Source of the DNA: Limnomonas spitsbergensis
Lineage: Eukaryota > Chlorophyta > Chlorophyceae > Chlamydomonadales
Length of the DNA stretch: 64,000 nucleotides
Direction: 5' to 3'
NCBI GenBank assembly: GCA_037349105.1
Contig: JAYJMM010000121.1
Location: 134,001-198,000 of the forward strand
Part shown: positions 877-30,985 of the stretch, piece after piece
Numbering within the stretch: the first letter of the stretch is position 1
Layout of the letters: each line of letters opens with the position of its first letter
Made by a program: the position numbers and the translations under genes
Notes under the pieces: generated by a model
What the model was told of the DNA's origin: nothing
Databases searched by the model: none
What the model saw: the letters and a program-made list of their open reading frames with translations, nothing else

Positions 877-3800
877 ATGCTCGTGATCTTCCACCAGATG
901 AAGGGGCATATAATAGCAAAGCAAGCATCCGTTCAGACTGAGACAGACGGTGAGAGGACCACTAGCGGCCCACACTTCCTGCACTCCAGCCGTATCCTGG
1001 CAGCGTGCAACAGCCGGATCTCTCAAGGCATGGACCAGGCAGCCATGAAGCTCCTGGTGCATAGGAGCATGGCCGAGCTGGAGTCTGATCTCACGCCAAA
1101 GTTCATGCCTAATCAAGTGAAGGTACGTCTGAACATCAGGGGTCCAGTCATATGTCTCTTGAGGGCTGTATTCCAATCCTGAATGCACGATTTTTGCTTT
1201 TGGAACATGAAGGTCACTTGACAACGTATCCTCTGATGCTGTTGTGGTAATTATATAAGTCGATACAGCCACAGACATGCCTCATCAAGGGGACTAGTCG
1301 ATACAAGAATAATGCAAGATCTTGATGCCTTATAATATGCTTCGTCATGCATGCCACTGATCCTGTTTATTACTCAAATTGCCTCTGGAATTCAAAATAT
1401 GCCCGAAGGGGGCTTCGGAGGTGAAACTGGTATCAGCAGCAACCTGGCATGAGACTCACTCTGTGGAAGTTGTCCCTAATTGATTATTCCTCCCCATCCA
1501 CCTTCAGACCTTCCATTTAGCTGCAGCGCTTTCGGCGGATGCAGGAACAAAGGTGCTGCTGCATCACGCAGAAGAATCAAAACGTGCTTGGATTCAGGTA
1601 AGCGCACAAATGTCTACACGTGCTTGGATTCAGGTAAGCGCACAAATGTCTACACGTGCTTGGATTCAGGTAAGCGCACAAATGTCTACACATGCTTGGA
1701 TTCAGGTAAGCGCACAAATGTCTACACATGCTTGGATTCAGGTAAGCGCACAAATGTCTACACGTGCTTGGATTCAGGTAAGCGCACAAATGTCTACACA
1801 TGCTTGGATTCAGGTAAGCGCACAAATGTCTACACATGCTTGGATTCAGGTAAGCGCACAAATGTCTACACATGCTTGGATTCAGGTAAGCGCACAAATG
1901 TCTACACGTGCTTGGATTCAGGTAAGCGCACAAATGTCTACACATGCTTGGATTCAGGTAAGCGCACAAATGTCTACACGTGCTTGGATTCAGGTAAGCG
2001 CACAAATGTCTACACATGCTTGGATTCAGGTAAGCGCACAAATGTCTACACGTGCTTGGATTCAGGTAAGCGCACAAATGTCTACACATGCTTGGATTCA
2101 GGTAAGCGCACAAATGTCTACACATGCTTGGATTCAGGTAAGCGCACAAATGTCTACACGTGCTTGGATTCAGGTAAGCGCACAAATGTCTACACATGCT
2201 TGGATTCAGGTAAGCGCACAAATGTCTACACGTGCTTGGATTCAGGTAAGCGCACAAATGTCTACACATGCTTGGATTCAGGTAAGCGCACAAATGTCAA
2301 CACATGCTTGGATTCAGGTAAGCGCACAAATGTCTACACATGCTTGGATTCAGGTAAGCGCACAAATGTCTACACATGCTTGGATTCAGGTAAGCGCACA
2401 AATGTCTACACATGCTTGGATTCAGGTAAGCGCACAAATGTCTACACATGCTTGGATTCAGGTAAGCGCACAAATGTCTACACATGCTTGGATTCAGGTA
2501 AGCGCACAAATGTCAACACATGCTTGGATTCAGGTAAGCGCACAAATGTCTACACATGCTTGGATTCAGGTAAGCGCACAAATGTCTACACGTGCTTGGA
2601 TTCAGGTAAGCGCACAAATGTCTACACATGCTTGGATTCAGGTAAGCGCACAAATGTCTACACGTGCTTGGATTCAGGTAAGCGCACAAATGTCTACACA
2701 TGCTTGGATTCAGGTAAGCGCACAAATGTCTACACATGCTTGGATTCAGGTAAGCGCACAAATGTCAACACATGCTTGGATTCAGGTAAGCGCACAAATG
2801 TCTACACGTGCTTGGATTCAGGTAAGCGCACAAATGTCAACACATGCTTGGATTCAGGTAAGCGCACAAATGTCAACACATGCTTGGATTCAGGTAAGCG
2901 CACAAATGTCTACACGTGCTTGGATTCAGGTAAGCGCACAAATGTCTACACATGCTTGGATTCAGGTAAGCGCACAAATGTCTACACATGCTTGGATTCA
3001 GGTAAGCGCACAAATGTCAACACATGCTTGGATTCAGGTAAGCGCACAAATGTCTACACATGCTTGGATTCAGGTAAGCGCACAAATGTCTACACATGCT
3101 TGGATTCAGGTAAGCGCACAAATGTCTACACATGCTTGGATTCAGGTAAGCGCACAAATGTCTACACATGCTTGGATTCAGGTAAGCGCACAAATGTCAA
3201 CACATGCTTGGATTCAGGTAAGCGCACAAATGTCAACACATGCTTGGATTCAGGTAAGCGCACAAATGTCTACACGTGCTTGGATTCAGGTAAGCGCACA
3301 AATGTCTACACATGCTTGGATTCAGGTAAGCGCACAAATGTCTACACGTGCTTGGATTCAGGTAAGCGCACAAATGTCTACACATGCTTGGATTCAGGTA
3401 AGCGCACAAATGTCAACACATGCTTGGATTCAGGTAAGCGCACAAATGTCTACACATGCTTGGATTCAGGTAAGCGCACAAATGTCAACACATGCTTGGA
3501 TTCAGGTAAGCGCACAAATGTCTACACATGCTTGGATTCAGGTAAGCGCACAAATGTCTACACGTGCTTGGATTCAGGTAAGCGCACAAATGTCTACACA
3601 TGCTTGGATTCAGGTAAGCGCACAAATGTCTACACGTGCTTGGATTCAGGTAAGCGCACAAATGTCTACACATGCTTGGATTCAGGTAAGCGCACAAATG
3701 TCTACACATGCTTGGATTCAGGTAAGCGCACAAATGTCTACACATGCTTGGATTCAGGTAAGCGCACAAATGTCTACACATGCTTGGATTCAGGTAAGCG

Positions 3801-6800
3801 CACAAATGTCAACACATGCTTGGATTCAGGTAAGCGCACAAATGTCTACACGTGCTTGGATTCAGGTAAGCGCACAAATGTCTACACATGCTTGGATTCA
3901 GGTAAGCGCACAAATGTCAACACATGCTTGGATTCAGGTAAGCGCACAAATGTCTACACATGCTTGGATTCAGGTAAGCGCACAAATGTCTACACGTGCT
4001 TGGATTCAGGTAAGCGCACAAATGTCAACACATGCTTGGATTCAGGTAAGCGCACAAATGTCTACACGTGCTTGGATTCAGGTAAGCGCACAAATGTCTA
4101 CACATGCTTGGATTCAGGTAAGCGCACAAATGTCTACACATGCTTGGATTCAGGTAAGCGCACAAATGTCTACACGTGCTTGGATTCAGGTAAGCGCACA
4201 AATGTCAACACATGCTTGGATTCAGGTAAGCGCACAAATGTCTACACATGCTTGGATTCAGGTAAGCGCACAAATGTCTACACATGCTTGGATTCAGGTA
4301 AGCGCACAAATGTCTACACGTGCTTGGATTCAGGTAAGCGCACAAATGTCTACACATGCTTGGATTCAGGTAAGCGCACAAATGTCTACACATGCTTGGA
4401 TTCAGGTAAGCGCACAAATGTCAACACGTGCTTGGATTCAGGTAAGCGCACAAATGTCTACACATGCTTGGATTCAGGTAAGCGCACAAATGTCTACACA
4501 TGCTTGGATTCAGGTAAGCGCACAAATGTCTACACGTGCTTGGATTCAGGTAAGCGCACAAATGTCTACACATGCTTGGATTCAGGTAAGCGCACAAATG
4601 TCTACACGTGCTTGGATTCAGGTAAGCGCACAAATGTCTACACATGCTTGGATTCAGGTAAGCGCACAAATGTCTACACATGCTTGGATTCAGGTAAGCG
4701 CACAAATGTCAACACATGCTTGGATTCAGGTAAGCGCACAAATGTCTACACATGCTTGGATTCAGGTAAGCTCACAAATGTCTACACGTGCTTGGATTCA
4801 GGTAAGCGCACAAATGTCTACACGTGCTTGGATTCAGGTAAGCGCACAAATGTCTACACATGCTTGGATTCAGGTAAGCGCACAAATGTCTACACATGCT
4901 TGGATTCAGGTAAGCGCACAAATGTCTACACGTGCTTGGATTCAGGTAAGCGCACAAATGTCTACACATGCTTGGATTCAGGTAAGCGCACAAATGTCTA
5001 CACGTGCTTGGATTCAGGTAAGCGCACAAATGTCTACACGTGCTTGGATTCAGGTAAGCGCACAAATGTCTACACATGCTTGGATTCAGGTAAGCGCACA
5101 AATGTCAACACATGCTTGGATTCAGGTAAGCGCACAAATGTCTACACATGCTTGGATTCAGGTAAGCGCACAAATGTCTACACATGCTTGGATTCAGGTA
5201 AGCGCACAAATGTCTACACATGCTTGGATTCAGGTAAGCGCACAAATGTCTACACATGCTTGGATTCAGGTAAGCGCACAAATGTCTACACATGCTTGGA
5301 TTCAGGTAAGCGCACAAATGTCTACACATGCTTGGATTCAGGTAAGCGCACAAATGTCTACACATGCTTGGATTCAGGTAAGCGCACAAATGTCTACACA
5401 TGCTTGGATTCAGGTAAGCGCACAAATGTCTACACGTGCTTGGATTCAGGTAAGCGCACAAATGTCTACACATGCTTGGATTCAGGTAAGCGCACAAATG
5501 TCAACACATGCTTGGATTCAGGTAAGCGCACAAATGTCTACACATGCTTGGATTCAGGTAAGCGCACAAATGTCTACACGTGCTTGGATTCAGGTAAGCG
5601 CACAAATGTCTACACGTGCTTGGATTCAGGTAAGCGCACAAATGTCTACACATGCTTGGATTCAGGTAAGCGCACAAATGTCTACACATGCTTGGATTCA
5701 GGTAAGCGCACAAATGTCTACACGTGCTTGGATTCAGGTAAGCGCACAAATGTCTACACATGCTTGGATTCAGGTAAGCGCACAAATGTCTACACATGCT
5801 TGGATTCAGGTAAGCGCACAAATGTCTACACATGCTTGGATTCAGGTAAGCGCACAAATGTCTACACATGCTTGGATTCAGGTAAGCGCACAAATGTCAA
5901 CACATGCTTGGATTCAGGTAAGCGCACAAATGTCTACACGTGCTTGGATTCAGGTAAGCGCACAAATGTCTACACGTGCTTGGATTCAGGTAAGCGCACA
6001 AATGTCTACACATGCTTGGATTCAGGTAAGCGCACAAATGTCTACACATGCTTGGATTCAGGTAAGCGCACAAATGTCTACACATGCTTGGATTCAGGTA
6101 AGCGCACAAATGTCTACACATGCTTGGATTCAGGTAAGCGCACAAATGTCTACACGTGCTTGGATTCAGGTAAGCGCACAAATGTCTACACGTGCTTGGA
6201 TTCAGGTAAGCGCACAAATGTCTACACATGCTTGGATTCAGGTAAGCGCACAAATGTCTACACATGCTTGGATTCAGGTAAGCGCACAAATGTCTACACG
6301 TGCTTGGATTCAGGTAAGCGCACAAATGTCTACACGTGCTTGGATTCAGGTAAGCGCACAAATGTCTACACATGCTTGGATTCAGGTAAGCGCACAAATG
6401 TCTACACATGCTTGGATTCAGGTAAGCGCACAAATGTCTACACGTGCTTGGATTCAGGTAAGCGCACAAATGTCTACACGTGCTTGGATTCAGGTAAGCG
6501 CACAAATGTCTACACATGCTTGGATTCAGGTAAGCGCACAAATGTCTACACGTGCTTGGATTCAGGTAAGCGCACAAATGTCTACACATGCTTGGATTCA
6601 GGTAAGCGCACAAATGTCTACACATGCTTGGATTCAGGTAAGCGCACAAATGTCTACACATGCTTGGATTCAGGTAAGCGCACAAATGTCAACACATGCT
6701 TGGATTCAGGTAAGCGCACAAATGTCTACACGTGCTTGGATTCAGGTAAGCGCACAAATGTCTACACGTGCTTGGATTCAGGTAAGCGCACAAATGTCTA

Positions 6801-9800
6801 CACGTGCTTGGATTCAGGTAAGCGCACAAATGTCTACACGTGCTTGGATTCAGGTAAGCGCACAAATGTCTACACGTGCTTGGATTCAGGTAAGCGCACA
6901 AATGTCTACACGTGCTTGGATACAGGTCAAGGCAGGAGGATGCTTTGCTGGATCCTGCCAGGTTAGCACAGAATAATATAACACAATGTCTGGATTCAGG
7001 CAGGATCCACGTCAACGCAGAATATTAAGAAACATGCTGAGATCCAGGTATACGAGAGATACGAGATTGTTCCAGATCATTCCATGTTATCTGAGACAGA
7101 TGATGCAGGTCCCCATCAATAACAGAGACAGCAATCTAGTGGTCAAAGAAAGAATGAAATAAAGGAAACAGCTCCCTTTATGTCCAGCATGAGCAAGGAT
7201 GTCAAGAATGTGCTGTGCATAAGACCCAGGCTGTGATCATGCCATTTCGACTTGGCCCTGCAGCCCAGAAGACACTACATGCCAGGTAGGGGCATGAGGG
7301 TCAAGAATAACTCACACAACCAATGGGCCGATTAGCACATGCTGTGTCCACACCGGTATGAAAGTGTCCTGAAGCTCCGGATAATTGAACAGACTTTTTG
7401 TTTAATTTGCCTTTGTCCTCTCAGCCTGCCTCTACCTGATCCAACACAGCCCAGGTTGGCAGTCCTGCAGCAGCTTCAGGCAGCAAAGCAGAGGAAGGAA
7501 GCTAGAAACCCAGATCATTGAACATATGGTGCTTGCTGCTCAAATTGCTCTATTCCTCTCTGCCTGTCTCCACCTGCCCTATGCCTCCTCCACCACTGGC
7601 CAGGTCTGCGGTCTTACAGCAGATTCAGGCAGTGAAGCAGAGGAAGGAAGCTCAAAACCTGATACAACAGACGATGCTTGTCGCTGAAATTGCTTTGATC
7701 CTCTTTGCCTGTCTCCATTAGCTCCATCACAGACCAGGCTTGCAGCCATTAGGCCGAGGCTGTGTCTGCGCCTTTTTAAAGTTTCTAAAAATGATCTGCA
7801 GCTCCCGATCGCTCAACAGACGATGCTTGCTGCTCAAATTGCGTTTCACCTCTCCACCTGTCTCCTTCTGCTGATCTACCTCAGGCCAGGTCTGCAGTCC
7901 TGCAGCAGCTTCAGGCAGCTAAGCAGAGGAAGGAAGCTCAAAACCCCAATCAACAGGTAAGCACTTCGAAGAAATGATTAAGAATCAATTAATCAATACA
8001 TGCGCATGTCCTCAAACTTGAGACCTGACCACCCCAGACATGATTACAAATTGACTGTGGGTACTGGTTCGTGTGATGAAGTGTGAGATGCTCCTTGTCA
8101 CGATGAGTGCCAATGTTAAGAATCCGGACAGCATTTCAAACGCTCAATCAGACGCCTGCTCGTCTGCTTCATTGGCCTTCTCAGGATGTCATTTCATTAT
8201 TTAAGTCTGTTTCACTGACCTCATTGCGGGTATTGGCCTAGCAGGCACCTCGAGTGGTAAGCCACCGCCAACCAGACACAGATCAACCCAGGCACCTTGC
8301 ACATGGTAGCAAAGTCAGCCACTCCAGCATGCCAAGGGGAGCAGCTACCGGCAGTGGGCCAGATACGAACTTCGGCAGCGCCGGAGGGAGTAGCCGCGGC
8401 AAGAGACCAGCAGCTGCAGAGGCTCCTTGGGCCGGCACGGGCAGTGAGGGGAGGAGAGAGCTGCCAACGAAGACTGCTGGTGTCAGCTGCGTGCCTGCAA
8501 CGGGTCGGGAGGAGGCGATGTACGTGTCATCCGGAGAGGAGGATGGCCATGCTGGGGAGGGGAGTCGGCAAGTGGACGTCGAATGGCAGAAAGGCATTGA
8601 CAGGAGAGGCCCTCCACCTGGGATGCCACCGCCACATCAGGCACATCAGCTGCCACCGCAACAGCCGTATCATCAGCAGCAGCAGGGGCAGACTGGGGCA
8701 GGGGGGTGGCAGCGTCCGCAACATCAGCAGCAGGGTCAGCTGGCAGGAGAGGGCGCTTGGAAACAGCCTCGGAATGCTGGTGGGGGTGGTGCCCAGCCGG
8801 CGCACCACCTGCAGCCGAGTTCCGCTGATGCTGCAGCTGCTGCTGCTGCTGGCCCTGCTCCTGGCGCTGGGTTTGTCAGCGCAAGAACACAGCTGGCCAT
8901 GGAGATGGCTAAGAAGGGACAAACGTATCAACCAGGGAGCAGCGGGCAGCAGCAGGTAAAATATCGTTCGTTATAAATTTGAAAGAAATACTCAAATCTG
9001 CTGTTGGGTGAGGACAAAGGAACTTGTTTGAGATTAGGAATGGTCCAACCACGGAGCAGCGGCCAGCAGCAGGTAATATGTTATAATTTATTAAAGAATT
9101 AAACGATTGAAACGTTGGGCAGCGATAAAGGAAGAAACCTGTCTCAGCTTGGCAATCAGCCAATCAAAGGAGCGGTCGGCAGTAGGCGATATTCATAAAT
9201 GACACACCCTGGGGGCTAGGTTTATGAAGCAACCTGTGCAAGGTTAGAAATTGGCCTAGCAGAGGTGCAGCAACCAGCAGCAGGTGAGATCAATAAAGGA
9301 CACACCCTGGGATGTGGATTCATGGATCTACCTGTCTAAGGTTTGAAATCTATTAAGCAGAGGGGCAGGGGCCAGCATCAGGTGAGATCAGTAAATGACA
9401 CACCTGGGGGGCATTTATTCATGAAGCTACCTGTCCAAGGTTTTAAATCGGCTAGGCAAATATGCTGTGACCAGCAGCAGGTGAGATAAAAAACGACACC
9501 CTGGGGCATTTATTCACGAGCCTACCTGTCCAAGGTTTTAAATCAGCCTAGCAGCGAGACAGTAACCAGCAACCGGTCAGATCCATAAATGATACACCCT
9601 GGGACGCAGATTCATGAAGCGACCTGTCCCATGTTTGAAATATATTAAGCATTGGGGTAGCGGCCAGCAGCAGGTAGAATCAATTAATGACACACCCTGG
9701 GGTGTAGATTCACGAGCCGGAGTAGCAGAGAGACAGCAGTCAGCAGCAGGTGAGGTCGGTAAAAGACAGTCTCTGGTAAAGGACACACCCTGGGGGAATT

Positions 9801-12800
9801 TATTCATGAAGCTACCTGTCCAAGGTTTGAAATCGGCCAGGCATGGAAACTGCGGCCAACAGCATGTGAGATCAAGTCCTGTCATGATATACCCCTATAG
9901 GCCCTATAGCCCTAGGGCCTATGGCTATACCTATAGGGCCTATATAGGGCTTAAATCAGCATATTCTGACTTCGCAATCGGCAAAGCAAGGGAGCAGCGG
10001 CCAGCTTTTGGAGAATGCTCCCATGTTTAGGCTTCCACACCTCCTCACGTCAGATGTCAGAAGTTTTCCAATGCAAATTGCCATGGGTCACATGATCATA
10101 ATAGGACGCACAATATGCCCTTCCTGTCATGGTGCAGGAATGACACTAAGTGCATATTGTGCTTTTTCCAATATGCACTTCCTGTCATGGTGCAGGAATG
10201 ACACTAAGTGCATATTGTGCTTTTTCCAATATGCACTTCCCGTCATGGTGCTGGAATGACACTAAGTGCATATTGTGCTTTTTCCAATATGCACTTCCCG
10301 TCATGGTGCAGGAATGACACTAAGTGCATATTGTGCGTTTTCCAATATGCACTTCCTGTCATGGTGCAGGAATGACACTAAGTGCATATTGTGCGTTTTC
10401 CAATATGCACTTCCTGTCATGGTGCAGGAATGACACTAAGTGCATATTGTGCGTTTTCCAATATGCACTTCCTGTCATGGTGCAGGAATGACACTAAGTG
10501 CATATTGTGCGTTTTCCAATATGCACTTCCTGTCATATTGGAAGGGATAATATGAAAGGAAGTGCATATTGGATGATCAGCATCGATCTGCTCGTGCTGA
10601 TCATGCTGATCAGCAGCGTGCCTATGCGCCTGTGTTCAGGGCGGCAATTACTCCGCCCTCCTTTATTCATATGCATGTTGTGATTTCATGTGTCCGCAGG
10701 GTGGCGGTGGGTACCAACGCTCTCTAAAGAAACAGGTGACAGCAGGTGGCAGCTGCGGCTTAAGCCTGCCTTTTTCAATTCATACGTGTGTTATGACTTG
10801 ATGTGTCTGCAGGGTGGCGGTGGGTACCAGCGCCCTCTCAAGAGGCAGGTGCCAGCAGGTGGTAGTCGCGGCTTTACTCCACCATCCTTTATTCAGAAGG
10901 CGCTCAACGGCCCTCAGGCGTCATCAGGGGTCCGGAAGGGGGCAGGCGGCGCGGGAGCTGGCGGGGGACAAGCAGGAGGGGCCGGAGGAGGAGGAGGAGA
11001 GGGGGCTGAGTTCTCTGACCGAGTGATGGAACTACTGGCAGGTGAGCATGGCGTGTGCGCAGGCGTAAGATGTGAGTATTGCAACATCCATGTTTCAAAT
11101 ATTCAGGAGAAGCTGAAGTTCCTATCGACTTATAATTTGGCCCCACCCTAAACTCTAAGAAACTTGAATCATAATCTGAGGCTCTTTTTGGATTTTATTC
11201 TTTGCGTGTCAGCAGCAATTGAATCTGACTGGGGGCAGAACAGGGAATGATCCTAGTGGCACGCTGCATGGCCCAAAGAAACAGGGTTATTGGTAGACCT
11301 AAATCGGGTGGAAACGCCAGTCCACACTCAAAGAAACAGGGTTATTGGTAGACCTGTATCGGGTGGAAACGCCAGTCCACACTCAAAGAAACAGGGTTAT
11401 TGGTAGACCTGTATCGGGTGGAAACGCCAGTCCACACTCAAAGAAACAGGGTTATTGGTAGACCTATATCGGGTGGAATCGCCAGTCCACACTCAAAGAA
11501 ACAGGGTTATTGGTAGACCTGTATCGGGTGGAAACGCCAGTCCACACTCAAAGAAACAGGGTTATTGGTAGACCTATATCGGGTGGAATCGCCAGTCCAC
11601 ACTCAAAGAAACAGGGTTATTGGTAGACCTATATCGGGTGGAATCGCCAGTCCACACTCAAAGAAACAGGGTTATTGGTAGACCTATATCGGGTGGAATC
11701 GCCAGTCCACACTCAAAGAAACAGGGTTATTGGTAGACCTATATCGGGTGGAATCGCCAGTCCACACTCAAAGAAACAGGGTTATTGGTAGACCTATATC
11801 GGGTGGAAACACCAGTCCACACTCAAAGAAACAGGGTTATTGGTAGACCTGTATCGGGTGGAATCGCCAGTCCACACTCAAAGAAACAGGGTTATTGGTA
11901 GACCTATATCGGGTGGAATCGCCAGTCCACACTCAAAGAAACAGGGTTATTGGTAGACCTATATCGGGTGGAATCGCCAGTCCACACTCAAAGAAACAGG
12001 GTTATTGGTAGACCTATATCGGGTGGAATCGCCAGTCCACACTCAAAGAAACAGGGTTATTGGTAGACCTATATCGGGTGGAATCGCCAGTCCACACTCA
12101 AAGAAACAGGGTTATTGGTAGACCTATATCGGGTGGAATCGCCAGTCCACACTCAAAGAAACAGGGTTATTGGTAGACCTATATCGGGTGGAATCGCCAG
12201 TCCACACTCAAAGAAACAGGGTTATTGGTAGACCTATATCGGGTGGAATCGCCAGTCCACACTCAAAGAAACAGGGTTATTGGTAGACCTATATCGGGTG
12301 GAATCGCCAGTCCACACTCAAAGAAACAGGGTTATTGGTAGACCTATATCGGGTGGAAACACCAGTCCACACTCAAAGAAACAGGGTTATTGGTAGACCT
12401 GTATCGGGTGGAAACGCCAGTCCACACTCAAAGAAACAGGGTTATTGGTAGACCTATATCGGGTGGAATCGCCAGTCCACACTCAAAGAAACAGGGTTAT
12501 TGGTAGACCTATATCGGGTGGAATCGCCAGTCCACACTCAAAGAAACAGGGTTATTGGTAGACCTATATCGGGTGGAATCGCCAGTCCACACTCAAAGAA
12601 ACAGGGTTATTGGTAGACCTATATCGGGTGGAATCGCCAGTCCACACTCAAAGAAACAGGGTTATTGGTAGACCTATATCGGGTGGAATCGCCAGTCCAC
12701 ACTCAAAGAAACAGGGTTATTGGTAGACCTATATCGGGTGGAATCGCCAGTCCACACTCAAAGAAACAGGGTTATTGGTAGACCTGTATCGGGTGGAAAC

Positions 12801-15800
12801 GCCAGTCCACACTCAAAGAAACAGGGTTATTGGTAGACCTGTATCGGGTGGAAACGCCAGTCCACACTCAAAGAAACAGGGTTATTGGTAGACCTATATC
12901 GGGTGGAATCGCCAGTCCACACTCAAAGAAACAGGGTTATTGGTAGACCTGTATCGGGTGGAAACGCCAGTCCACACTCAAAGAAACAGGGTTATTGGTA
13001 GACCTATATCGGGTGGAATCGCCAGTCCACACTCAAAGAAACAGGGTTATTGGTAGACCTATATCGGGTGGAAACGCCAGTCCACACTCAAAGAAACAGG
13101 GTTATTGGTAGACCTATATCGGGTGGAATCGCCAGTCCACACTCAAAGAAACAGGGTTATTGGTAGACCTATATCGGGTGGAATCGCCAGTCCACACTCA
13201 AAGAAACAGGGTTATTGGTAGACCTATATCGGGTGGAAACACCAGTCCACACTCAAAGAAACAGGGTTATTGGTAGACCTGTATCGGGTGGAATCGCCAG
13301 TCCACACTCAAAGAAACAGGGTTATTGGTAGACCTATATCGGGTGGAATCGCCAGTCCACACTCAAAGAAACAGGGTTATTGGTAGACCTATATCGGGTG
13401 GAATCGCCAGTCCACACTCAAAGAAACAGGGTTATTGGTAGACCTATATCGGGTGGAATCGCCAGTCCACACTCAAAGAAACAGGGTTATTGGTAGACCT
13501 ATATCGGGTGGAATCGCCAGTCCACACTCAAAGAAACAGGGTTATTGGTAGACCTATATCGGGTGGAAACACCAGTCCACACTCAAAGAAACAGGGTTAT
13601 TGGTAGACCTGTATCGGGTGGAATCGCCAGTCCACACTCAAAGAAACAGGGTTATTGGTAGACCTATATCGGGTGGAATCGCCAGTCCACACTCAAAGAA
13701 ACAGGGTTATTGGTAGACCTATATCGGGTGGAATCGCCAGTCCACACTCAAAGAAACAGGGTTATTGGTAGACCTATATCGGGTGGAATCGCCAGTCCAC
13801 ACTCAAAGAAACAGGGTTATTGGTAGACCTGTATCGGGTGGAAACGCCAGTCCACACTCAAAGAAACAGGGTTATTGGTAGACCTGTATCGGGTGGGAAC
13901 GCCAGTCCACTCTCAAAGAAACTACACCAACGCACTGCAAATGTGTCATCCAATAAATGCTAACCCAAATGCTATAGACTGTTCCCCTTCGCCGGTGTAT
14001 TGTTGTATTTGCCACCAGGTCCAGATGGCCAAGTGCCCGAGGAGGTTCAGAAGCTGGACCCAAAGATTGTGGAACAGGTGAGACCACTCACTCTCACTTG
14101 ATCTTTCCAGATCCATACCAGATTCCCCTTGATCTCCCCAGATTCCTGCCATATTTCCCTCGGTGTCTAGCTGATCCCTGTTGATTCCCCTGCCTACTCG
14201 CTGCATCCAGATGGTGAGTTGGACCCCCCTCCCCAACTCCCGTTTCCTCACCTCGCTGTATTCAGGGATAAAATAAATTTTGCACAGTTCCTAGATTTCT
14301 TCACAACCTCCTATATTTTGATTATTTCCAATTATAGAGCCCCTAAGATCCTCTTCACCCCCATCTGTGCTCTTCTGACGCCTCCCCCCCCCCTCCTCTG
14401 CTTGGCATTCAGGTGGTGAATGAGATCCTAGACAACTCTGCTGGTGATGTGAGCTGGGAGGACATTGCTGGCCAGGAGCATGCCAAGCGGCTGGTGCAGG
14501 AGATTGTGGTCTGGCCCATGCTCAACCCACAACTATTCACGGTGAGCATCCAACACAGGCCGCCCTTAACGTACATAGACAGTGTAGCCATTATGGAGCG
14601 CCGCTGCTTACCCGGAGGCATTATCCCAGTCCTGACCCTCTCATGTGTGAATGCCAAGCGGCTGGTGCAGGAGATTGTGGATTGACCTATGCTCAGCCAA
14701 ATTTATTCACAGTGAGGGGGGCAGCCACTCCTTGCCCTCTGCCCACCTGCCTCCACCTCTACTTTCCCCTGTTCCTTCCATTTCAGGGTGAATAACTAAA
14801 GCACAGTTCCCGGTCCCCACCTTTTGGTCTCCTCTACCTTAGACATCCAGGCTACATCGCCCCCCCCCCCCCTGCCCTCAGCTTACCTGACACTGACCTC
14901 TTATTTCCTCTCTTCCCTCCAATCAGTTCTCACCCCTCATATTTTCCCTTTCCTTGTTGGGTGGTTGTTTCAGGGTGCTCGGGCCCCACCGCGTGGCCTC
15001 CTCCTGTTCGGACCTCCAGGCACAGGCAAGACCCTCATCGGCAAGGCCATCGCTTGCAACATCAAGGTAAAGGACTGTGTTCCAGGTGTAAGCGGGGTAA
15101 ACGTCTGGCGCTTCGTTGAAAGTGCCCCGCAGAATGTCGTGAGCGGCTATCCTATTAAGGATAAAACTGCTGTGGGTCGAGCGGTACCTCACGCCTCCGG
15201 CTTCGGAGGAGGAGGAGTTTTTTCCCGGGCGGGGATGGGTGAAGCGGTTCAAATAGGGGTGTGGAGAGGTCGGGGATGGGATGGAGGGGTGAATCGGGTT
15301 AGATAGAGGTGTGGAGAGGTCGGGGGTGGGATGGAGGGGTGAAGTGGTGACGCGGGCTAAATAGAGGTGTGGAGAGGTCGGGGGTGGGATGAAGGGGTGA
15401 AGCGGTTAGATTGGGGTGCGGAGAAGTTGGGGATGGATTGGAGGGATGAAGCGGTTAGATAGGGGTGTGGAGAGGTTGGGGATGGGTTGGAGGGGTGAAG
15501 CGGGATAGATAGAGGTGTGGAGAGGTCGGGGGTGGGATGGAGGGGTGAAGCGGGTTAGATAGAGGTATGGAGAGGTCGGGGATAGGATGGAGGGGTGAAT
15601 CGGGTTAGATAGGGGTGTGGAGAGGTCGGGGGTGGGATGGAGGGGTGAAGTGGTGACGCGGGCTAAATAGAGGTGTGGAGAGGTCGGGGGTGGGATGGAG
15701 GGGTGAAAGGTGATGAGCAGCAAGACAGGGGGAGGAGGACAAGTAGCGCGACACAGCATGATACAGTGCAGGTGTAGCTGCATTACTGTAGGGCAGTATA

Positions 15801-18800
15801 TAGCCAAGTTTGCATGACACTGCACAATACTGCTCGATACGGCACGATACGGCACAACACGGCACAATGTGGCACAACACGGCACAATGTGGCACAACAC
15901 GGCACAATGTGGCACAACACGGCACAATGTGGCATATGTTTCCCTGGATCGCACTACCAAGGCAGCACGATACAGCGCAATTGGCAATTATTTAGCCGGT
16001 TTTTACTACCAAGGTAGCACGATACGGCACAACTGGGCACTTGTTTAACCGCATGGTACTGTCAGAGGACTGCCAGAGGGCTGGCAATGCACGCATGGGG
16101 CAGAAATATCCACTGGATGATAGATTGAGGGTAGGTTGCATCTGACGGCGGCCAGAGGGCTGGCAATGCACGCATGGGGCAGAAACATCCACTGAGTGAT
16201 TTAGTGAGGGTAGGTTGCATCTGACGGCGGCCAGAGGGCTGGCAATGCACGCATGGGGTAGAAACATCCACTGAGTGATTGATTGAGGGTAGGTTGCATC
16301 TGACGGCGGCCAGAGGGCTGGCAATGCACGCATGGGGCAGAAACATCCACTGAGTGATTGATTGAGGGTAGGTTGCATCTGACGGCAGCCAGAGGGCTGG
16401 CAATGCACGCATGGGGCAGAAACATCCACTGAGTGATTGATTGAGGGTAGGTTGCATCTGACGGCAGCCAGAAGGCTGGTAATGCACGCATGGGGCAGAA
16501 TTTCCACTGAGTGATAGATTGAGGGTAGGTTGCATCTGACGGCAGCCAGAGGGCTGGCAATGCACGCATGGGGCAGAAACATCCACTGAGTGATTGATTG
16601 AGGGAGGTTGCATCTGACGGCAGCCAGAGGGCTGGCAATGCACGCATGGGTTAGAAACATCCACTGAGTGATTAATTGAGGGTAGGTTGCATCTGACGGC
16701 GGCCAGAGGGCTGGTAATGCACTCATGGGGTAGAAACATCCACTGGATGATTGATTGAGGGTAGGTTGCATCTGACGGCAGCCAGAGGGCTGGCAATGCA
16801 CTCATGGGGCAGAAACATCCACAGAGTGATAGATCGAGATGTCTACCCTGTGCACTGCTAGTGCCAAGTTAAGAACAGTGCATACACACTGGGCCCCATT
16901 GTAAACTTTGAAAAACCAAGAGAAGTGTCGCATGGTTTTGAGATGCTATCTTGAGGTTATGTATACAAATCATCCCTTCGTCAGGAGGGGGGGTGTGTGT
17001 GCGTGTATTAGTATCTCGATTCAGTGCGTGCCAGGGCACCTGTGGGGGCCGCTGGGTTGCCCCCTTTTGGCCATTGACAACCAAACCTTCACTGGCCTAG
17101 GACCCGTGGCCCAATTGAGCAGCAGGGCTTCCTGCTGCAGCCCTTAATGGCCGAAAGCATGGTGTAGCTGAATTGTAGCTGACACACGCTAGATTAAACT
17201 CTGATATGCACAGCTTGGGAGACGCATGGCTTCCATCGTTCAGCACATGAACGTTTGATTGGTTGCCTTAGCCCTTGCTTCGCCCAAAATGGGAGGCCCC
17301 CTAAGCCCACGTTCCACCTTTGTGTATTGATTTGAAATACACCTGGACGATACTGAGAGGCAGCAGCTGCGTTATTTGGTCGGCTGGTCTTCCCCTTTCC
17401 GAATCCACCCGTTTGGTCATGCACTCACTGATGTGCCCGTGCTAGGCGCGTGGCAGTCTATTCTCCTGACCGCCCCCACCCCCCTCTTTGCTTGACGTGT
17501 GGATGCCTTGTGATCCTTATGAGCAGCCCCTCCCCTGCTGCCTTCTCCCCCTGCACATTCAGGCCACATTCTTCTCCATCAGCAGTAGCAGCCTGACATC
17601 CAAGTGGATCGGGGAGGGAGAGAAAATGGTGCGTAGCAGGGGGGCAGCCAGCCTAGGGGCCGTCCGACTTCAGCTTTGGTGCCGCATGATGCAATTACAC
17701 AAAAAGTGCAACCAGCACAAATACAAAGGCGTTTTCTTTTATGCAGAGGAATCTTGCGAGGTGGGCATTAAGGTCGGGAGGCTCTGACCCTTCCTCAGCA
17801 TGGCAGACGTCCGCCTTTTGCTTTGCCATGCATGATTAAATACAATAATATGCATCTGGCAAAAGAACGAATAAGGGGAGCCTTTTTTGCACCGAGGACT
17901 CTTGCACAGCGGACAACCAGGCTGGGATGTCCTTACCCTGCCTCCAGCTGACTGCCGTCCATTTGGGCTTTGCACCACAGGATAACACTAAAAAAATGGC
18001 GTCTCTGGCAAAACAAAACAGTTTTGTTTCAGCAGAGGAATCTTGCCTAGCGGTCAGGAGGGCAGGGCATTCCCACTCTTCCTCAGCTTGACAACCATCC
18101 ACGCGCTCTGCGACGCATAATTACAATTAAAAAGGCCTCCACACAAAACAAAAAGGCAGCTGCTTGCTCAGAGGAATCTTGCGAAGTGCACATCAAGGCT
18201 GGGATATTCTCACTCTTCCTCAGCCCAACTGTATTCATCGCGCCTTGGTGGAAACCAAGTGGGTCCCAGCCTTGCTGACTGTTATGCAAGATTTTAGTTT
18301 TTAATCCTGCAGCGCAAAGCGCAACGTTCTCAGGTCAACACAGTTTTCACCCTAGCCCCCTGTTGACCTGATGCATCTCTTCACCCATGCTCAGGTCAAG
18401 GCTCTGTTCACCATCGCGCGATGTTTGCAGCCGAGCGTAATTTTCATTGACGAGATCGATTCCATCCTCTCAGCCCGGAAAGCGGAGGTGCGCGTATGGG
18501 GCGGGGGGGCTTGGGTGCCAAGATGAAATACTATGCTACTGGCCCATGCGGAAATTATAAATGAAGAGTGGAAGCCTTGCCTTATATAGAGGTATGGTTG
18601 GGGCAGCAAGGTGTATGACCCTTCAGCTCATAAAGCAGAGGACGTTATATTTGAGACGGGGGAGATCGGATGCCAGGATGATCATTCATACACGCCCAAG
18701 TACATAATTGTAGAATGGAAGCGTAATCCTGTAGGGATGTAGGGTTGAGGAAGCAGGTGTACTACCTCCTGTCCGCTGGTTAAACAGAGATTGTCAATTG

Positions 18801-21800
18801 AGACGGGGGAGATCGGATGCCTGGATGGTCAGGAACGAAGAGAGAGTGCTTCTCCCAGTGGGGGCGTGAGAGTTGAAGAAGGCGCCTGAAGATAGACCTG
18901 CATGCTCTGTTCCTTTTCCATTGATTTCCCTTTGTACAAGGTGCTCGTTGCATGGCGCATGGTGCATGGCGCATGGTGCATGGTGCATGGTACACCAAGC
19001 ATGGTGCATGGTGCATGGTGCATGGTGCATGGTGCATGGTGCATGGTGCATGGTACACGGTGCATGGTGCATGGTGCACGGGGCATGGGGCATGGGGCAT
19101 GGGGCATGGGGCATGTTCTAAATCACAAACCCTCCCATCCTTGCCACAGGGCAAACACGAGTCTACTCGCCTCATGACCGAGATGCTCACTCATTTAATT
19201 CAAATCCGAACACGCCCTTCTTTGCTACAGGGTGAGCACGAATCGAGTCGCCGTCTCAAGACGGAGATGCTGGTTCAAATGGAGGGTTGTGATCCTAAGA
19301 GCAGCGGCTGCAGGGTGCTGCTCATAGGAGCCACCAACAGGCCGGAGGTGAGTAGATACTAAATAATTGGCATGGACTGACACGCAAATGAGAAGGGGGG
19401 GGGTCGATTCATATAGAGGGTGGTGGTCCCCAGAGCAGCGGCTGCAGGGTGCTGCTCATAGGAGCCACCAACAGGCTGGAGGTGAGGAGGAACCTCGTAA
19501 TAGACACGGGAGACACTTTATAAGGGCACATACTGATATGTGCATGAGAAGTGGGCTGGGACAGGGGTGACCACAATTCTCCAGGGTTTGCTTTGCTGCA
19601 GTCCCTTTGGGGGACCGTGGGGTGGCGACCACTGGGCCAATTGGGACCAAACCTTGCCTAGCCTGCGTCTAGTGGCCCGAGCTACTGGGCATGCTGCACC
19701 AGGTTCCCCGTGGCTGCAGGCCATGATGTATATGATGTTAAGCTGGAGCACGTGGGATTGGAAAAAACAACGCCAGCCTCATGACCACTGCCGGGTGACC
19801 ACCACTAGTCTGATTGGGAACCAACCTTGGCCAGCCTGAGGTACCCGGGCTACTGGGCACGCACGCTCCGGGTTACCTGGTACGAAAGTACGGTACGATC
19901 AAACGGTACGGTCAAAGGGTACGGTACGGCTATGGATACGGTACGGCCAAAATGGCCGGACTGGTCAGGAAATGGCCGATAGGGTGTTTTGACACGGTAC
20001 GGTACGGGTGGACTGTGCGGTACCGCACGGGATTTGGACCCAGACGGGTGTACTGGGTTACCCTGGGCACACTGCGTCCCTGGGCACACATCCTGGGCAC
20101 ACACCCTGGGCACGCACCCTGGGCACGCTGTGTCAGGTCCCCTTGGCCGCAGGCAATGATGAGCCTGATTTTCAGCTGGGTCAGAAGGAAATGAAAAAAT
20201 CACTGCAAGCACCCTGACCTCCTTAACCCTGAAGACAAATGAACGAATACAGCTAAGGCTGTTTCAATGCCAGAGGTCACGGCGCGGATGTGGCTTTAGC
20301 CCAGGCTGCGCTGATTCCTTAACTCTCACACCCCCCACGGGGCGTAGCTTTCTTTCTTACTTCAATTCGAGAGTGATTCCTCCCTTCTCTCTCACAGGAG
20401 CTTGATGATGCAGCCCGTCGCCGCCTACCCAAGCAGCTATACGTGTCCCTCCCTTGTGCGGTGGCCAGGCAGCAGATGGTGAGGTTCATGTGTGCATGCC
20501 TGCATGGTTATCCTGTAGCTTTAAAATGCATGTGTGATCAAATACCTAGTGCGGTGGCCAGGTAGAAGATGGTGAGGTTGATGTATATATTGCCATTATA
20601 TAGGTTTCAAAGTTGCCTACTGATTAGCTCTAGGTTACCTACCGGTTAGCTCTAGGTTACCTACCGATTAGCTCTAGGTTACCTACTGATTAGCTCTAGG
20701 TTACCTACTGATTAGCTCTAGGTTACCTACTGATTAGCTCTAGGTTACCTACTGATTAGCTCTAGGATGCCTACTGATTAGCTCTAGGTTACCTACTGAT
20801 TAGCTCTAGGTTACCTACTGATTAGCTCTGGGTTACCTACTGATTAGCTCTAGGTTACCTACTGATTAGCTCTAGGTTACCTACTGATTAGCTCTAGGTT
20901 ACCTACTGATTAGCTCTAGGTTACCTACTGATTAGCTCTAGGTTACCTACTGATTAGCTCTAGGTTACCTACTGATTAGCTCTAGGTTACCTACTGATTA
21001 GCTCTAGGATGCCTACTGATTAGCTCTAGGTTACCTACTGATTAGCTCTAGGTTACCTACTCATTAGCTCTAGGTTACCTACTCATTAGCTCTAGGTTAC
21101 CTACTGATTAGCTCTAGGTTACCTACTGATTAGCTCTAGGTTACCTACTCATTAGCTCTAGGTTACCTACTGATTAGCTCTAGGTTACCTACTGATTAGC
21201 TCTAGGTTACCTACTGATTAGCTCTAGGTTACCTACTGATTAGCTCTAGGTTACCTACTGATTAGCTCTAGGTTACCTACTCATTAGCTCTAGGTTACCT
21301 ACTCATTAGCTCTAGGTTACCTACTGATTAGCTCTAGGTTACCTACTGATTAGCTCTAGGTTACCTACTGATTAGCTCTGGGTTACCTACTGATTAGCTC
21401 TAGGTTACCTACTCATTAGCTCTAGGTTACCTACTCATTAGCTCTAGGTTACCTACTGATTAGCTCTAGGTTACCTACTCATTAGCTCTAGGTTACCTAC
21501 TGATTAGCTCTAGGTTACCTACTGATTAGCTCTAGGTTACCTACTGATTAGCTCTAGGTTACCTACTGATTAGCTCTAGGTTACCTACTGATTAGCTCTA
21601 GGTTACCTACTGATTAGCTCTAGGTTACCTACTGATTAGCTCTAGGTTACCTACTCATTAGCTCTAGGTTACCTACTCATTAGCTCTAGGTTACCTACTG
21701 ATTAGCTCTAGGTTACCTACTGATTAGCTCTGGGTTACCTACTGATTAGCTCTAGGTTACCTACTGATTAGCTCTAGGTTACCTACTCATTAGCTCTAGG

Positions 21801-24800
21801 TTACCTACTGATTAGCTCTAGGTTACCTACTGATTAGCTCTAGGTTACCTACTGATTAGCTCTAGGTTACCTACTCATTAGCTCTAGGTTACCTACTGAT
21901 TAGCTCTAGGTTACCTACTGATTAGCTCTAGGTTACCTACTGATTAGCTCTAGGTTACCTACTCATTAGCTCTAGGTTACCTACTCATTAGCTCTAGGTT
22001 ACCTACTGATTAGCTCTAGGTTACCTACTGATTAGCTCTAGGTTACCTACTGATTAGCTCTGGGTTACCTACTGGTTAGCTCTAGGTTACCTACTGATTA
22101 GCTCTAGGTTACCTACTCATTAGCTCTAGGTTACCTACTCATTAGCTCTAGGTTACCTACTGATTAGCTCTGGGTTACCTACTGGTTAGCTCTAGGTTAC
22201 CTACTGATTAGCTCTAGGTTACCTACTGATTAGCTCTAGGTTACCTACTGATTAGCTCTGGGTTACCTACTGATTAGCTCTGGGTTACCTACTGATTAGC
22301 TCTGGGTTACCTACTGATTAGCTCTAGGTTACCTACTGATTAGCTCTAGGTTACCTACTCATTAGCTCTAGGTTACCTACTCATTAGCTCTAGGTTACCT
22401 ACTCATTAGCTCTAGGTTACCTACTGATTAGCTCTAGGTTACCTACTCATTAGCTCTAGGTTACCTACTGATTAGCTCTAGGTTACCTACTGATTAGCTC
22501 TAGGTTACCTACTGATTAGCTCTGGGTTACCTACTGATTAGCTCTGGGTTACCTACTGATTAGCTCTGGGTTACCTACTGATTAGCTCTGGGTTACCTAC
22601 TGATTAGCTCTAGGTTGCCTACTGATTAGCTCTGGGTTACCTACTGATTAGCTCTGGGTTACCTACTGATTAGCTCTAGGTTACCTACTGATTAGCTCTA
22701 GGTTACCTACCACCTTGCTCGTCCTGTCCGTTTTGAAAAAGTACTGTGGGATAGAAGTGCAAGTAAATGCACTGTGCAATACAAAGTAAACATACTGCTC
22801 TCCCTAGGTTTTATGGCAACGGCGTGGGTGCTGCCATGGCCCATGCCACACTGTTCCTTAACCTTCACGCCCCTGCGGGGCGTAGACTTTTTTTTCCCTA
22901 GGTTTTCTACCAATTTGCTTTTCCTGGCCGTTTTGGAACAAATACTGTGGGACAGAAGTAAAAGCACTGTGCAATAAGAGGGGGGAAATATGAGTCAAAA
23001 TACTGTGTCAAATGACTGAAGGGAAATTGGGGGAAATCCAACATGACAGAAGATGGTAGCATGCACCGACAGCTGCTCTCGGAGCGATAATGATCCCCTG
23101 CCCCCTCCCTCCGTTCTGCCTGATACATGTTACTAGGTGGCGCGCATGATGCTGGGGGTGCCTCCCTCATTCCTCCCCGATGCATGTTTCACACTTAGTC
23201 ACACCTAGGTGGCGCGTTTCCTGCTGGGGATGCCTCCCTCATATCTCCCCGATGCACGTTTCACACTTCTTCACACCTAGGTGGCGTGTATGCTGCTGGG
23301 AGTGCGTCACTCATTCCTCCCTGTTGCATGCTTCACACGTATTCACACCTAGGTGGCGCGCATGCTGCTGGGGGTGCGTCACTGCCTAGGGGTTGTGGAG
23401 CTGGCGAAGGTGGTATCACGCACCGACGGCTACTCGGGGAGTGACATGCGTAACTTCATCCAGGAAGCGTGTCAGGTGGGCTGTTAACCCTAAACCCTAA
23501 ACCTTGAACCCTAGTCACTTCAACCATAAACTACAATCCCTAAACCCAAATCCATGAACCCCAATCCATGAACCCTAAACCCCAAACCTGTATCCCTTAT
23601 GCCTAACTGTCACATTATAAGAGCTTGTAGAAGTTAGTAGTGCACACGGACAGCAACTCGCGGAGTGGCATGCGCAATCTCATCCAGGAGGCCTGTCACG
23701 TGGGGGATGGGCATAAAAGAGGCAAAGGGTAAATCACCTCAAGCAGACAGGCGGCATGTCGCTGGTGCTGGCCACGATTATGCATTTCATCCAGTTGGTG
23801 TCTCAGGGGTGGGATGTACATTAGGGAGGCCCCCCCATCAGGAGGCCTCCACATCACTCACTTTGCACACATGGTATTGGCGCGGACGCGGCCCAGGCCC
23901 ATGCCGCGCTTTCCTTAACCCTCACGCCCCTGCGGGGCGTACTTTTACTTTCCTTCCTTCCTGCACTTATGGGATGTGCATTAAGGAGGCCCCCACAACG
24001 TGGGATGTGCATTAAGGAGGCCCCCCTCCACATCACTCACTTTGCACTTATGAGCTCCCTAAACCCCTTCACCTTCTACCCCCCCCCCCCCCCAGCCTCC
24101 CCCTTTTTCTCTCTCGCTCCCTCCTCATGCGCTTAAGGGTTCTCCTACTTGCTTCCTGCTTCTGCCCACCCTCTGTCCCTCCCATCCCCTCTCTCCTCCC
24201 CCATCCCTCCAGCTATCACCCACTCCACGCTCTCTCCCCCACCCATGCGCCTCGTTCCTTAAGGGTCCTATTTGAGACCCCCAGCTCTCTCCCACCCCTA
24301 CGCAGCCCCCCCCACTCCTGCTCTCCCATGCCCCCCACTCTCCACCCTCGTGCTTTGCTCCATCAGATTCCTTTGCGAGATGCTCAGCATAGCGGTCAGG
24401 ACGTCGGGGGCTTTTAGGAAGACATCCTGAGGCCGGTCGTTCACACACACACACACACGTCTTGCTCACCCCTCTGCCTCTTTCACCCATCCATGTCCAT
24501 CCCACCACCCCGCTTCCTTCAGGGTCCTATTCGAGATGCCCAACGTGGCGGTCAGGACGTCAGGGGCTTGCAAGAAGATGATCTGAGGCCGGTCGGGCTG
24601 AGAGACTTCCAGGTGGGCGCTGCTTACTTGGATTGGTGATGAGACGCCATAACTCATCACTCACCAGTGATATAAGCAACTCATTATGGAAGATGACCTG
24701 AGGCCGGTTGGGCTAAGAGACTGAGAGACTACGCCCCGTGGGGCATGAGAGTTAAGAAAACAGCGCAGCCTGGGCCGAGACCACATCCGTCCCGTTACCA

Positions 24801-27490: not shown

Positions 27491-29000
27491 TAAGACCGGT
27501 AGGCATAACACATATTGTGAATAAGAACGTGACCACGAGCTGCATGTTAGCGGTGCTCAGTGATGCATCGGCATATATAAGTGGAATATTTCCAGAGTCT
27601 TATTAGTAAATACGTTCAGGTACTTACGGGCACCCTACGCCCTGCGGCTCGCCTTTGCAATAGGCATACCATATTAGTGTGAATATAAATTAAACCACAA
27701 ACTGCCGACAAACTGCCTGTTCTCGGTGCTCACGCCTAGTAGGCCATCTCAGGCCTAGTAGTAGGCCATCTCAGGCATAGTAGGAATAAACATATAAAGG
27801 ACATAGTCCCACAGTGTCGGTATCGATGTTCAACTGAGTTTGCAGCAGTGACATCCTGGCGGTACATCCTGACGGTGCTTTGAAATAGGCGTGACAAATA
27901 TTGTGAATAGGAGGTTACTTGAACATCAAAAAAGTTATAGTGCTCATCATTATTCGTGATTGCGCATTCAGCAGGTAGGCCCATGCGTGATCAGACATGC
28001 ACGACCCAGGCCAGGCAGTAGACCCTAAACCCTCAACCAGGGGCCAGACAGCAAACCCTGTATCCTAAGCAGGAGCCCAGGCAGTAAACCTTAAACCTGG
28101 GCCCAGACATTAAAACCCTAAACTCTCAACCTAGGCCCTAGCAGTAAACCCTGAACCTGGGCCCAGACATTAAACCCTAAACTCCAAACCCAGACACAGG
28201 CAGTAAACCCTACACCCTTGATTGCGATCATCATTATTCAGGCGCATTTGGCAGGTAGGCCCATGTGTCATGAGAACTACACAAACCGGGCCCAGGCAGT
28301 ACAAATTTGAAGGGTCGTGTGTTTGTAGCCTGTATGCAATGTTTACTCTTCGCCCCTATAACAGCATCAGATATTGCGACTCGACTGACGTCACACATCC
28401 TCACACATCCCAACACATCCTCACACATCCCAGCACAGCCTGACAGCGGTCTGATGCATCCTCAAACATAAACACCCACCTTCAATGTGCACGCGTAGCA
28501 TTGGAGCGTTTCCCAACATCCCCCGGCCCCCAAATAGACATCAAATCAAAAGCCAGGACGTTAATGATTTCTGATTCATAAACAGTTCCTGTGGCCACGT
28601 AAATATCTCCTTGAAATATCTCATATAATGATCTTTTTGGAACTTGTGATCGAAATGTCTTGAAAATTCACACGCTAGCCACAGTTTGGTGCACAACTAA
28701 GGCAGCGGGCAAAGATCAACTGAGAAAATAGAGCAGCAGGCTGAAATACCTCATTGGATAATCTCATTGGAATATATCATTCGAATATCTCATTGCAATA
28801 CCTTGGTACATGCTAGCCACGCATTTGGTACAATCTAGCCAGGCATTTGGTACAATCTAGCCAGGCATTTGGTACAATCTAGCCAGGCATTTGGTACAAT
28901 CTAGCCAGGCATTTGGTACAATCTAGCCAGGCATTTGGTACAATCTAGCCAGGCATTTGGTACAATCTAGCCAGGCATTTGGTGCACAACCAAGGCAGCA
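27491..29000. other. Non-coding stretch with telomere-like tracts
   Basis: It contains two similar donor-like segments, TTCAGCAG|GTAGGCCCATG (27968) and TTTGGCAG|GTAGGCCCATG (28245). Between them lies a degenerate repeat pairing CCCAGGCAGTA with AACCCTAAACC (about six copies, 28000-28220). No convincing gene. Confidence 0.5.
28815..28985 (+). repeat. 22-bp tandem repeat, about eight copies
   Basis: TAGCCAGGCATTTGGTACAA then TC repeats about eight times with few changes. Confidence 0.9.
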
Positions 29001-30637: not shown

Positions 30638-30985
30638 TTAGTTCCTCACTGGGCTGAATAGTGCAACAGGATCGCTGCCGATGATAGGTGCTCCACCCAT
30701 AACAGTTTTTTCGGTTGAGAAAGCACTGCAGGCCTTAGCAACACGTATTCCACCTTTGGCTGCGCCAGTGCCGGCAACAGGGCCGTCGCTGACTGCTGGT
30801 CCTCCGCTCACGGCTGTGCCACCACTCCCGCCTGAAGATCCTCTGCTGTTCACACGTCCTCGGCCCATCGCTGTGTCGCCAATCCCGCAAGTCATCAGAG
30901 CGTCGGTGCCGGCGCTGGCATAAGTGCCGCAGCTTATATCCTCCCCCTGCTGGTCATTCCGCTGCTGCTGCTGCTGCTGCTGCAT
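30638..30985 (-). CDS. Low-complexity ORF, 115 codons, uncertain
   Basis: The minus frame begins with a poly-Gln run and continues Gly/Ser/Ala-rich, ending near a GTGAGG donor-like site. Nearby paired segments TCCTACCCGTCTGAGG (30439) and TCCTACCTGTCCGAGG (30610) look like another echo of a short exon edge. No family recognised. Confidence 0.25.
   Translation of the reverse strand: MQQQQQQQRNDQQGEDISCGTYASAGTDALMTCGIGDTAMGRGRVNSRGSSGGSGGTAVSGGPAVSDGPVAGTGAAKGGIRVAKACSAFSTEKTVMGGAPIIGSDPVALFSPVRN

Follow-up and report, generated by a model that had tools for sequence, protein, structure and literature searches.

The donor edge of a predicted exon in a FIGNL1-type AAA ATPase gene of a chlorophycean alga is repeated as a 36-bp array with 148 donor copies. 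We consider neutral growth of the intron across this donor, with the first donor mainly used, to be the probable explanation. In the window, by which we mean the whole analysed stretch of 64,000 nucleotides, the gene model has 15 predicted exons over 25 kb. Matches to PF00004 (5.5e-37) and PF17862 (7.2e-07) identify the AAA domain and its lid, the best solved structure is fidgetin-like protein 1 (2.2e-103), and the C. eustigma homologue matches at 59% over 76% of the query. The gene and array comprise the following features.

1030..1122, + strand: predicted exon 1 with the start codon region and donor AAG|GTACGT (frame, phase 0; codon score 0.287)
1508..1597, + strand: predicted exon 2, whose 3' edge is proposed to have seeded the array (acceptor 11.55 bits, donor 9.53 bits, phase 0 on both sides)
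1585..6927, + strand: 36-bp minisatellite with 148 donor copies (TRF: 36 bp x 148.4, 97% match)
1598..1603, + strand: first, exon-proximal donor GTAAGC, proposed as main donor (9.53 bits; precedents of other copied donors and of ABCA7)
6890..6895, + strand: last donor GTAAGC (array match)
6962..7047, + strand: two decayed older units (6962-6999 and 7011-7047; scores 29 and 24)
7885..7956, + strand: predicted exon 3, 72 nt, with the acceptor for intron 2 (codon score -0.141, attained by 5.9% of intronic windows)
14413..25924, + strand: exons 7-15, the C-terminal ATPase region (gene model, domain and structure matches)

The GT dinucleotides of the 148 donors span 1598..6890 and all 147 spacings are exactly 36, which confirms the exact register given in the preliminary description. 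CAG|GTAAGC is intact in 148/148 units, and CAGGTAAGC has 148 matches from 1595 to 6887. The 20-mer CAGGTAAGCGCACAAATGTC is present in 147 of the 148 units, the remaining one carrying GTAAGCTCAC. Across the whole 260-Mb assembly this 20-mer has 147 occurrences on the + strand and none on the - strand, so that the array supplies the entire assembly count. Arrays of 5.3 kb can be misassembled in copy number, and the count could in principle be an assembly artefact. We regard this as highly improbable, since the unit variants are mixed along the array and form no higher-order repeat (the longest shared run is 9; shuffle mean 9.7) and the assembly is contiguous, with 260 Mb in 124 contigs.

The array spans the predicted exon 2 donor, in agreement with the earlier view that an exon edge was amplified. 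That every unit holds the last 15 exon bases is true for 47 of the 148 units only; 100 units have CA for CG and one ends in ATACAG. The exon-like CG state is found in the first two and the last six units, compared with 40 of the 140 interior units, and this presence at both array ends is what internal expansion predicts. Beyond the array lie the two decayed units, whose scores were judged against 300 shuffles (95th percentile 22, maximum 27). The first in-frame stop (6974-6976) sits inside the decayed unit 6962-6999. Upstream of it the sense frame is open through the array, and the 5382 nt from the exon start at 1508 to the last donor are divisible by three and contain no stop; the claim that every donor is frame-compatible with 7885 thus holds. 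The donor had also been described as strong. Its 9.53 bits support this, but the value is ordinary for the genes modelled: 26 of 40 donors score lower and 14, its own included, score equal or higher.

The exon itself, at 1508-1597, is plausible but weakly supported, as predicted from splice signals and frame. Its codon score of -0.458 is not coding-like, being attained by 30.5% of 996 intronic windows, whereas none of the 996 reaches the 0.287 of exon 1. Homology evidence for exons 1-3 is discordant: the best BLAST hit of this N-terminal region has an E value of 0.039, phmmer similarity is not significant (20/200 shuffles equally good), and a profile built from the N-termini of 23 green-algal FIGNL1 proteins gives 8.4 bits for exons 2-3, with 5/1000 shuffles higher and at least one tied. 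The codon score and the phmmer result would suit a gene in which exon 2 is no real exon, transcripts join exon 1 to exon 3 or begin downstream, and the array belongs to ordinary intronic or upstream sequence. The frame is also kept by joining exon 1 to exon 3, and the 72-nt length of exon 3 keeps it if exon 3 is skipped. The profile match argues against this reading, as does the combination of a strong donor with the acceptor that scores best within 1123-1600 (12.11 bits when introns 1-3 are excluded from training; runner-up 6.61), and we consider it quite unlikely.

Each unit end, GGATTCAG|GTAAGC, could alternatively act as acceptor and donor at once, as in human UBC, with stochastic splicing yielding FIGNL1 with variable 12-residue repeats. 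The unit end scores 5.52 bits as a predicted acceptor, which exceeds 14 of the 40 modelled acceptors and places it among the highest 5.5% of the 2005 intronic AGs; as donor it has 9.53 bits. Three units (108 nt) exceed the shortest modelled intron (92 nt), and with an array that is 0 mod 3 and stop-free any internal pairing stays in frame. UBC splices likewise, and VCX3A is described as analogous in the available account. Against this stand the codon score of the unit, which despite the open frame does not resemble that of coding sequence (-0.719; intronic mean -0.628), and the expectation of open in-frame units by chance. Among 45 arrays, the period is divisible by three in 15, and these average 3.4 of 6 open frames; the in-frame property was accordingly rejected as a sign of selection. 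Dual-specific use of the units is unlikely, but a variable protein keeps some probability, as each unit end scores as a fair acceptor. The full form, a ladder of 148 such sites giving FIGNL1 with 0 to 147 inserts of 12 residues made stochastically, appears improbable. If it were true, one gene would give a range of FIGNL1 proteins, in a genome with exon-edge arrays at varied stages of growth and decay.

Proximity effects exist among competing donors, and with duplicated 5' splice sites in constructs the intron-proximal site can be preferred. The last donor at 6890 might on this basis win by its closeness to the acceptor, so that all 147 repeats would be translated as a 1764-residue insert. The resulting intron of 995 nt, as opposed to 6287 nt, is closer to the median of 648 nt of the 40 modelled introns. 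In 16 further cases of donor duplication in this genome, however, choosing the intron-proximal copy adds a stop, the intron 4 copies and two arrays on C4 likewise run into stops, and the second donor of ABCA7 is used at only about 2% in the account available; we judge this outcome very unlikely. For a competing donor pair, the choice is decided by SRSF1 binding, distance and site strength, according to the part of the report seen (PMC5585400).

Further copies of splice junctions are found within the host gene, where the exon-copy comparison counted 8 of 15 exons.

7438..7670, + strand: two decayed exon 3 copies inside intron 2 (7451-7517, 89.6%; 7599-7670, 86.1%; acceptor copy from 7438)
8242..8955, + strand: predicted exon 4 with a weak real donor CAG|GTAAAA of 5.54 bits (5' end of the exon uncertain, with an acceptor score of -5.28)
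9046..9871, + strand: older donor array within intron 4, in which the exon 4 edge recurs seven times with a GT (5/7 outscore the real donor)
10688..10761, + strand: copy of the exon 5 acceptor and exon start (113 nt extension, frameshift)
14651..14716, + strand: partial exon 7 copy with donor (exon-copy comparison)
19138..19171, + strand: exon 11 acceptor copy, in frame and stop-free (exon-copy comparison)
19408..19489, + strand: duplicate of the 3' portion of exon 11, donor intact (exon-copy comparison)
20545..20583, + strand: exon 12 edge copy, donor intact (exon-copy comparison)
23133..23377, + strand: 72-bp array of 3.4 copies with the exon 13 acceptor CACCTAG|GTGGCGCGC (TRF, exon-copy comparison)

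The count for intron 4 omits the GT at 8966, since this is the true exon edge displaced along its own CAG repeat. A stop lies 18 nt past the real exon 4 donor, and the donor copies in intron 4 are therefore unproductive.

Local duplication is frequent in this genome. The share of sequence in tandem repeats is 29.7% across 13 sampled stretches of 10 kb each and 39.1% in the window. Of 80 splice junctions examined in FIGNL1 and two CDC48 genes, 27 have copies in their own intron, which shows introns expanding through duplicates of the adjoining exon edges. The junctions are copied at 14/28, 6/26 and 7/26 per gene, compared with intronic 42-mers at 80/134, 12/50 and 18/51 (together 110/235, exon-internal controls 18/122). 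The junction count used 100 shuffles, the controls and the stop and frame test 60, and the row sets differ by a few. A duplication process targeting splice junctions is ruled out, as intronic controls match at least as often in all three genes. The copies in these genes number one to about seven per site and are diverged, not 147 identical ones. At the 16 other duplicated donors, GT is intact in 15 and splicing from the copy would bring in a stop in all 16, so that productive splicing at those sites is expected from the exon-proximal donor. Six of the 15 copied donors that were scored (L022 intron 6 left out) equal or exceed the real donor in strength. The exon-proximal argument is weaker for copied acceptors, judged from the same kind of comparison: AG is intact in 9 of 11, and 4 extensions are stop-free, of which 2 are in frame (intron 10 in the window and intron 6 of L023).

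AGGTRAG is not enriched in the repeat units of the 45 arrays (1 observed, 0.63 expected). Genome-wide, three AGGTRAG motifs spaced 20-50 bases give 13,414 matches against 5,808 for the reversed pattern, from which no enrichment is drawn, as both counts may be governed by large arrays and the places listed are the first ones. Among the matches listed there are about ten distinct donor arrays, of which eight were fetched (L026, L027, L028, L030-L034). Five of them (L026, L027, L028, L031, L033) include 5' flanking sequence beyond the repeat, and in L030, L032 and L034 the stretch is still repeat. Among the five, one array is clearly located at an exon edge (C4:1649024-1650445; 29 bp, 49 periods) and a second one probably is (from C4:3120183 onward; 34 bp); both shift the frame and meet stops. 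The exon at L027 has no Pfam match and no PDB match.

The window array was initially regarded as an unusual setting that could yield a length-variable protein. That it is singular, or that such a protein is likely, is not supported. Periods divisible by three and open frames are expected by chance, judged from the 45 arrays, and copied donors are also present in intron 4 and on C4. The intron 4 copies are unproductive, the C4 arrays with periods of 29 and 34 meet stops, and retention of one ABCA7 unit is rare in the report as far as available.

Taking neutral intron growth as the favoured reading, tandem duplication across the exon 2 donor would have been the starting event of the minisatellite, and growth to 148 copies would have enlarged intron 2. 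Many of the copies could bind U1, and splicing from 1598, the sole donor adjoining the authentic exon body, to 7885 would yield most mRNA, the remaining 147 donors acting as decoys. Leaky use of later donors or splicing within the array would give minor isoforms in frame rather than lead to decay, since 36 is a multiple of three and the unit has an open frame. By analogy to the ABCA7 VNTR, which affects the next exon in this way, array growth may increase skipping of exon 3. A selected function is not needed to explain the array. The alga provides a natural series of donor copies, ranging from single ones through roughly seven in intron 4 and the 49 periods of a C4 array to the 148 described here, covering in-frame and out-of-frame as well as near-identical and decayed copies, while donor choice is usually studied in built constructs.

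In the literature searched by title and abstract opening, no report of an array of this kind from a green alga was found. Human segmental duplications contain internal tandem repeats at exon-intron boundaries that alter splicing (PMC2812944). These are likewise minisatellites at exon-intron borders, with mean 30-bp units; in the part of that report available they have about 4 units on average and vary between recent paralogues. Duplication of AG|GT segments similarly creates alternative splice sites, and the fission yeast example of 24 bp, as partly accessible, has introns across several copies; here an existing intron is enlarged and no new intron is claimed. Tandem arrays of dual-specific splice sites in human UBC can give length-variable proteins (PMC10809524). 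UBC shares AG|GT at every unit border, a length divisible by three and outcomes that are all in frame, so far as its account was available, but its units code for ubiquitin, whereas the unit described here is an intron-edge sequence that is not coding-like and its acceptor use is predicted. The closest experimentally studied case is the VNTR in intron 18 of human ABCA7, with a unit of 25 bp and about 12 to 427 units (PMC5954066). In the available part of that report, this VNTR starts at and includes the donor of the exon, with the donor GT as the opening dinucleotide of the unit; it makes the intron up to eightfold larger, and a second donor that retains one unit is used at about 2% (PMC5954066). 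Both arrays include a donor and enlarge an intron, with the exon identity of 1508-1597 being predicted in our case. A retained 25-bp unit breaks the frame in ABCA7, whereas the units here are in frame and near-identical, and exon sequence within the unit is not stated in the ABCA7 account seen, while here it amounts to about 15 bp.

In the FIGNL1-type host gene, a 36-bp minisatellite spans the 3' edge of predicted exon 2 (1508..1597) and the donor of the following intron:

Window 1585-6927 (extent by TRF), + strand: 36-bp array at the edge of predicted exon 2, each unit with a CAG|GTAAGC donor.

The preliminary description of 148 such donors in exact 36-bp register holds: all 147 spacings are 36 and 148/148 donors are intact. 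Units vary at four positions (23, 18, 7 and 33). At position 23, the CG state is found in 48/148 units; this exon-like state is present in all of the first two and last six units and in 40 of the 140 interior units. The variant at position 18 occurs in 20 units, those at positions 7 and 33 in one unit each. Two decayed units follow 3' of the array, and the first of them contains the first in-frame stop (6974). Since the unit end scores as a fair acceptor, splicing inside the array would be possible. The boldest reading, a possible one, is a UBC-like outcome in which one site serves as both acceptor and donor.

The host gene is predicted to have 15 exons (1030 to 25924), joined to a 727-residue FIGNL1-type protein with AAA and lid domains. 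Its nearest solved structures are fidgetin-like protein 1 chains, and its top-scoring protein match is from Chlamydomonas eustigma (Chlamydomonadales; 59% over 76% of the query). Judged by the solved-structure alignment, which spans 401-709, the C-terminal exons are secure. Exons 1-3 are not: their homology tests conflict, and exon 1 is coding-like in codon usage but exon 2 is not. The exon 2 acceptor is nevertheless the top of its interval, and its donor is strong. The 5' boundary of exon 4 is uncertain because its acceptor is the lowest of those scored.

In 13 sampled stretches, tandem repeats account for 29.7% of the sequence after merging (range 4.6 to 83%), and two of the stretches contain arrays exceeding 100 units. 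In window and sample together, the period is divisible by three in 15 of 45 arrays, and 14 of these 15 leave one or more of the six frames open (mean 3.4 open). The share expected to be in frame and open in one given frame is therefore one third of arrays times about 0.57. The host gene carries further large intronic arrays at 11274-13922 (55 bp x 48) and 20612-22710 (22 bp x 95); AGGTRAG is absent from the consensus of both. At 31127-33012, a 39-bp array, open in one frame (30836-31360), precedes a 35-bp array, and most 39-bp units contain CAGGTATGG and TTTCAG or a variant. A 2.2-kb array of the 12-bp unit TGGGTGGGCAGG (35868-38083) shows strong strand asymmetry, with a GC skew of 0.746 at 36001-38000. 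Interstitial telomere-like repeats (CCCTAAA and relatives) lie at 23486-23597, 28008-28218 and 54844-54909.

Eight arrays were retrieved from a search of the 260-Mb assembly (G000) for three consecutive AGGTRAG motifs. Five of the retrieved stretches (L026, L027, L028, L031 and L033) extend into the 5' flank; L030, L032 and L034 are still within the repeat. The matches listed include:

L027 1667-1823 (G000 C4:1649024-1650445): another donor array at an exon edge, the second in all, with 49 periods of a 29-bp unit that breaks the frame.
L031 from 983: probably a third such array, 34-bp unit.
G000 C4:3939791-3962830: 49-bp repeats with donors, dispersed over 23 kb; the flank (L030) is still repeat.

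The L027 unit holds 16 nt of the upstream edge and follows 83 open codons (codon score 0.40), which places this array clearly at the edge of an exon. L031 is probably at one as well, with 125 open codons upstream, a codon score of just 0.08 and a stop at the fifth codon on. In both, the frame is shifted and stops are met. No clear exon was seen at the 5' flank of L026, L028 or L033. Unit borders in L028 (from 1808, CCCCCCTGGCAG|GTGAG) and L026 (from 1775, CTGCATTACAG|GTAAG) look like acceptor plus donor, resembling recursive splice sites.

BLAST detects copies in a neighbouring intron for at least eight of the 15 FIGNL1 exons; for exon 4, the matches listed (7 of 15) are all outside the gene. 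A copy beating all other introns and 100 shuffles was found for 14 of 28 FIGNL1 junctions, and 12 of these cross the junction. Two CDC48 genes (L022 and L023), modelled with a spliced aligner and free of internal stops on frame checking, gave 6/26 and 7/26. Preferential duplication of junctions was rejected, as intronic controls had copies at least as often in each gene. The phenomenon is local duplication that extends over exon edges. The CDC48 genes have 14 exons each, nearly all of equal length. Three junctions are common to the 6 and 7; the copies lie in partly different introns, which suggests turnover after duplication.

Donor choice was judged in these three genes from which product must be productive. 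Besides the array, GT is kept in 15 of 16 duplicated donors, and use of the copy adds a stop in all 16. Six of the 15 scored equal or exceed the real donor in strength; in FIGNL1 intron 4, where the real donor has an in-frame stop 18 nt downstream, five of seven GT copies outscore it. Since these copies and both exon-edge arrays bring stops, the alga appears to tolerate donor arrays by splicing from the donor nearest the exon. The argument is weaker for copied acceptors, because 2/11 are in frame and open.

The 36-bp array is a striking case of a phenomenon already described, given its counterparts in ABCA7, UBC, human duplicated genes and algal introns. A 25-bp array of up to ~427 units takes in the exon 18 donor of ABCA7, an isoform retaining one unit amounts to ~2% independent of array length, and longer arrays give more skipping of the next exon (PMC5954066). 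The passages describing this isoform make no mention of later donors. By analogy, skipping of predicted exon 3 (72 nt, in frame) would be expected here. UBC isoforms arise by stochastic use of a tandem array of dual-specific sites (PMC10809524), human duplicated genes have minisatellites at exon-intron borders (PMC2812944), and in C. reinhardtii and Volvox carteri tandem repeats are densest in introns and more numerous close to intron-exon junctions (PMC3887541). Within this known kind, the 36-bp array is distinguished by being in frame, by its near-identical units and by the exon sequence within the unit.
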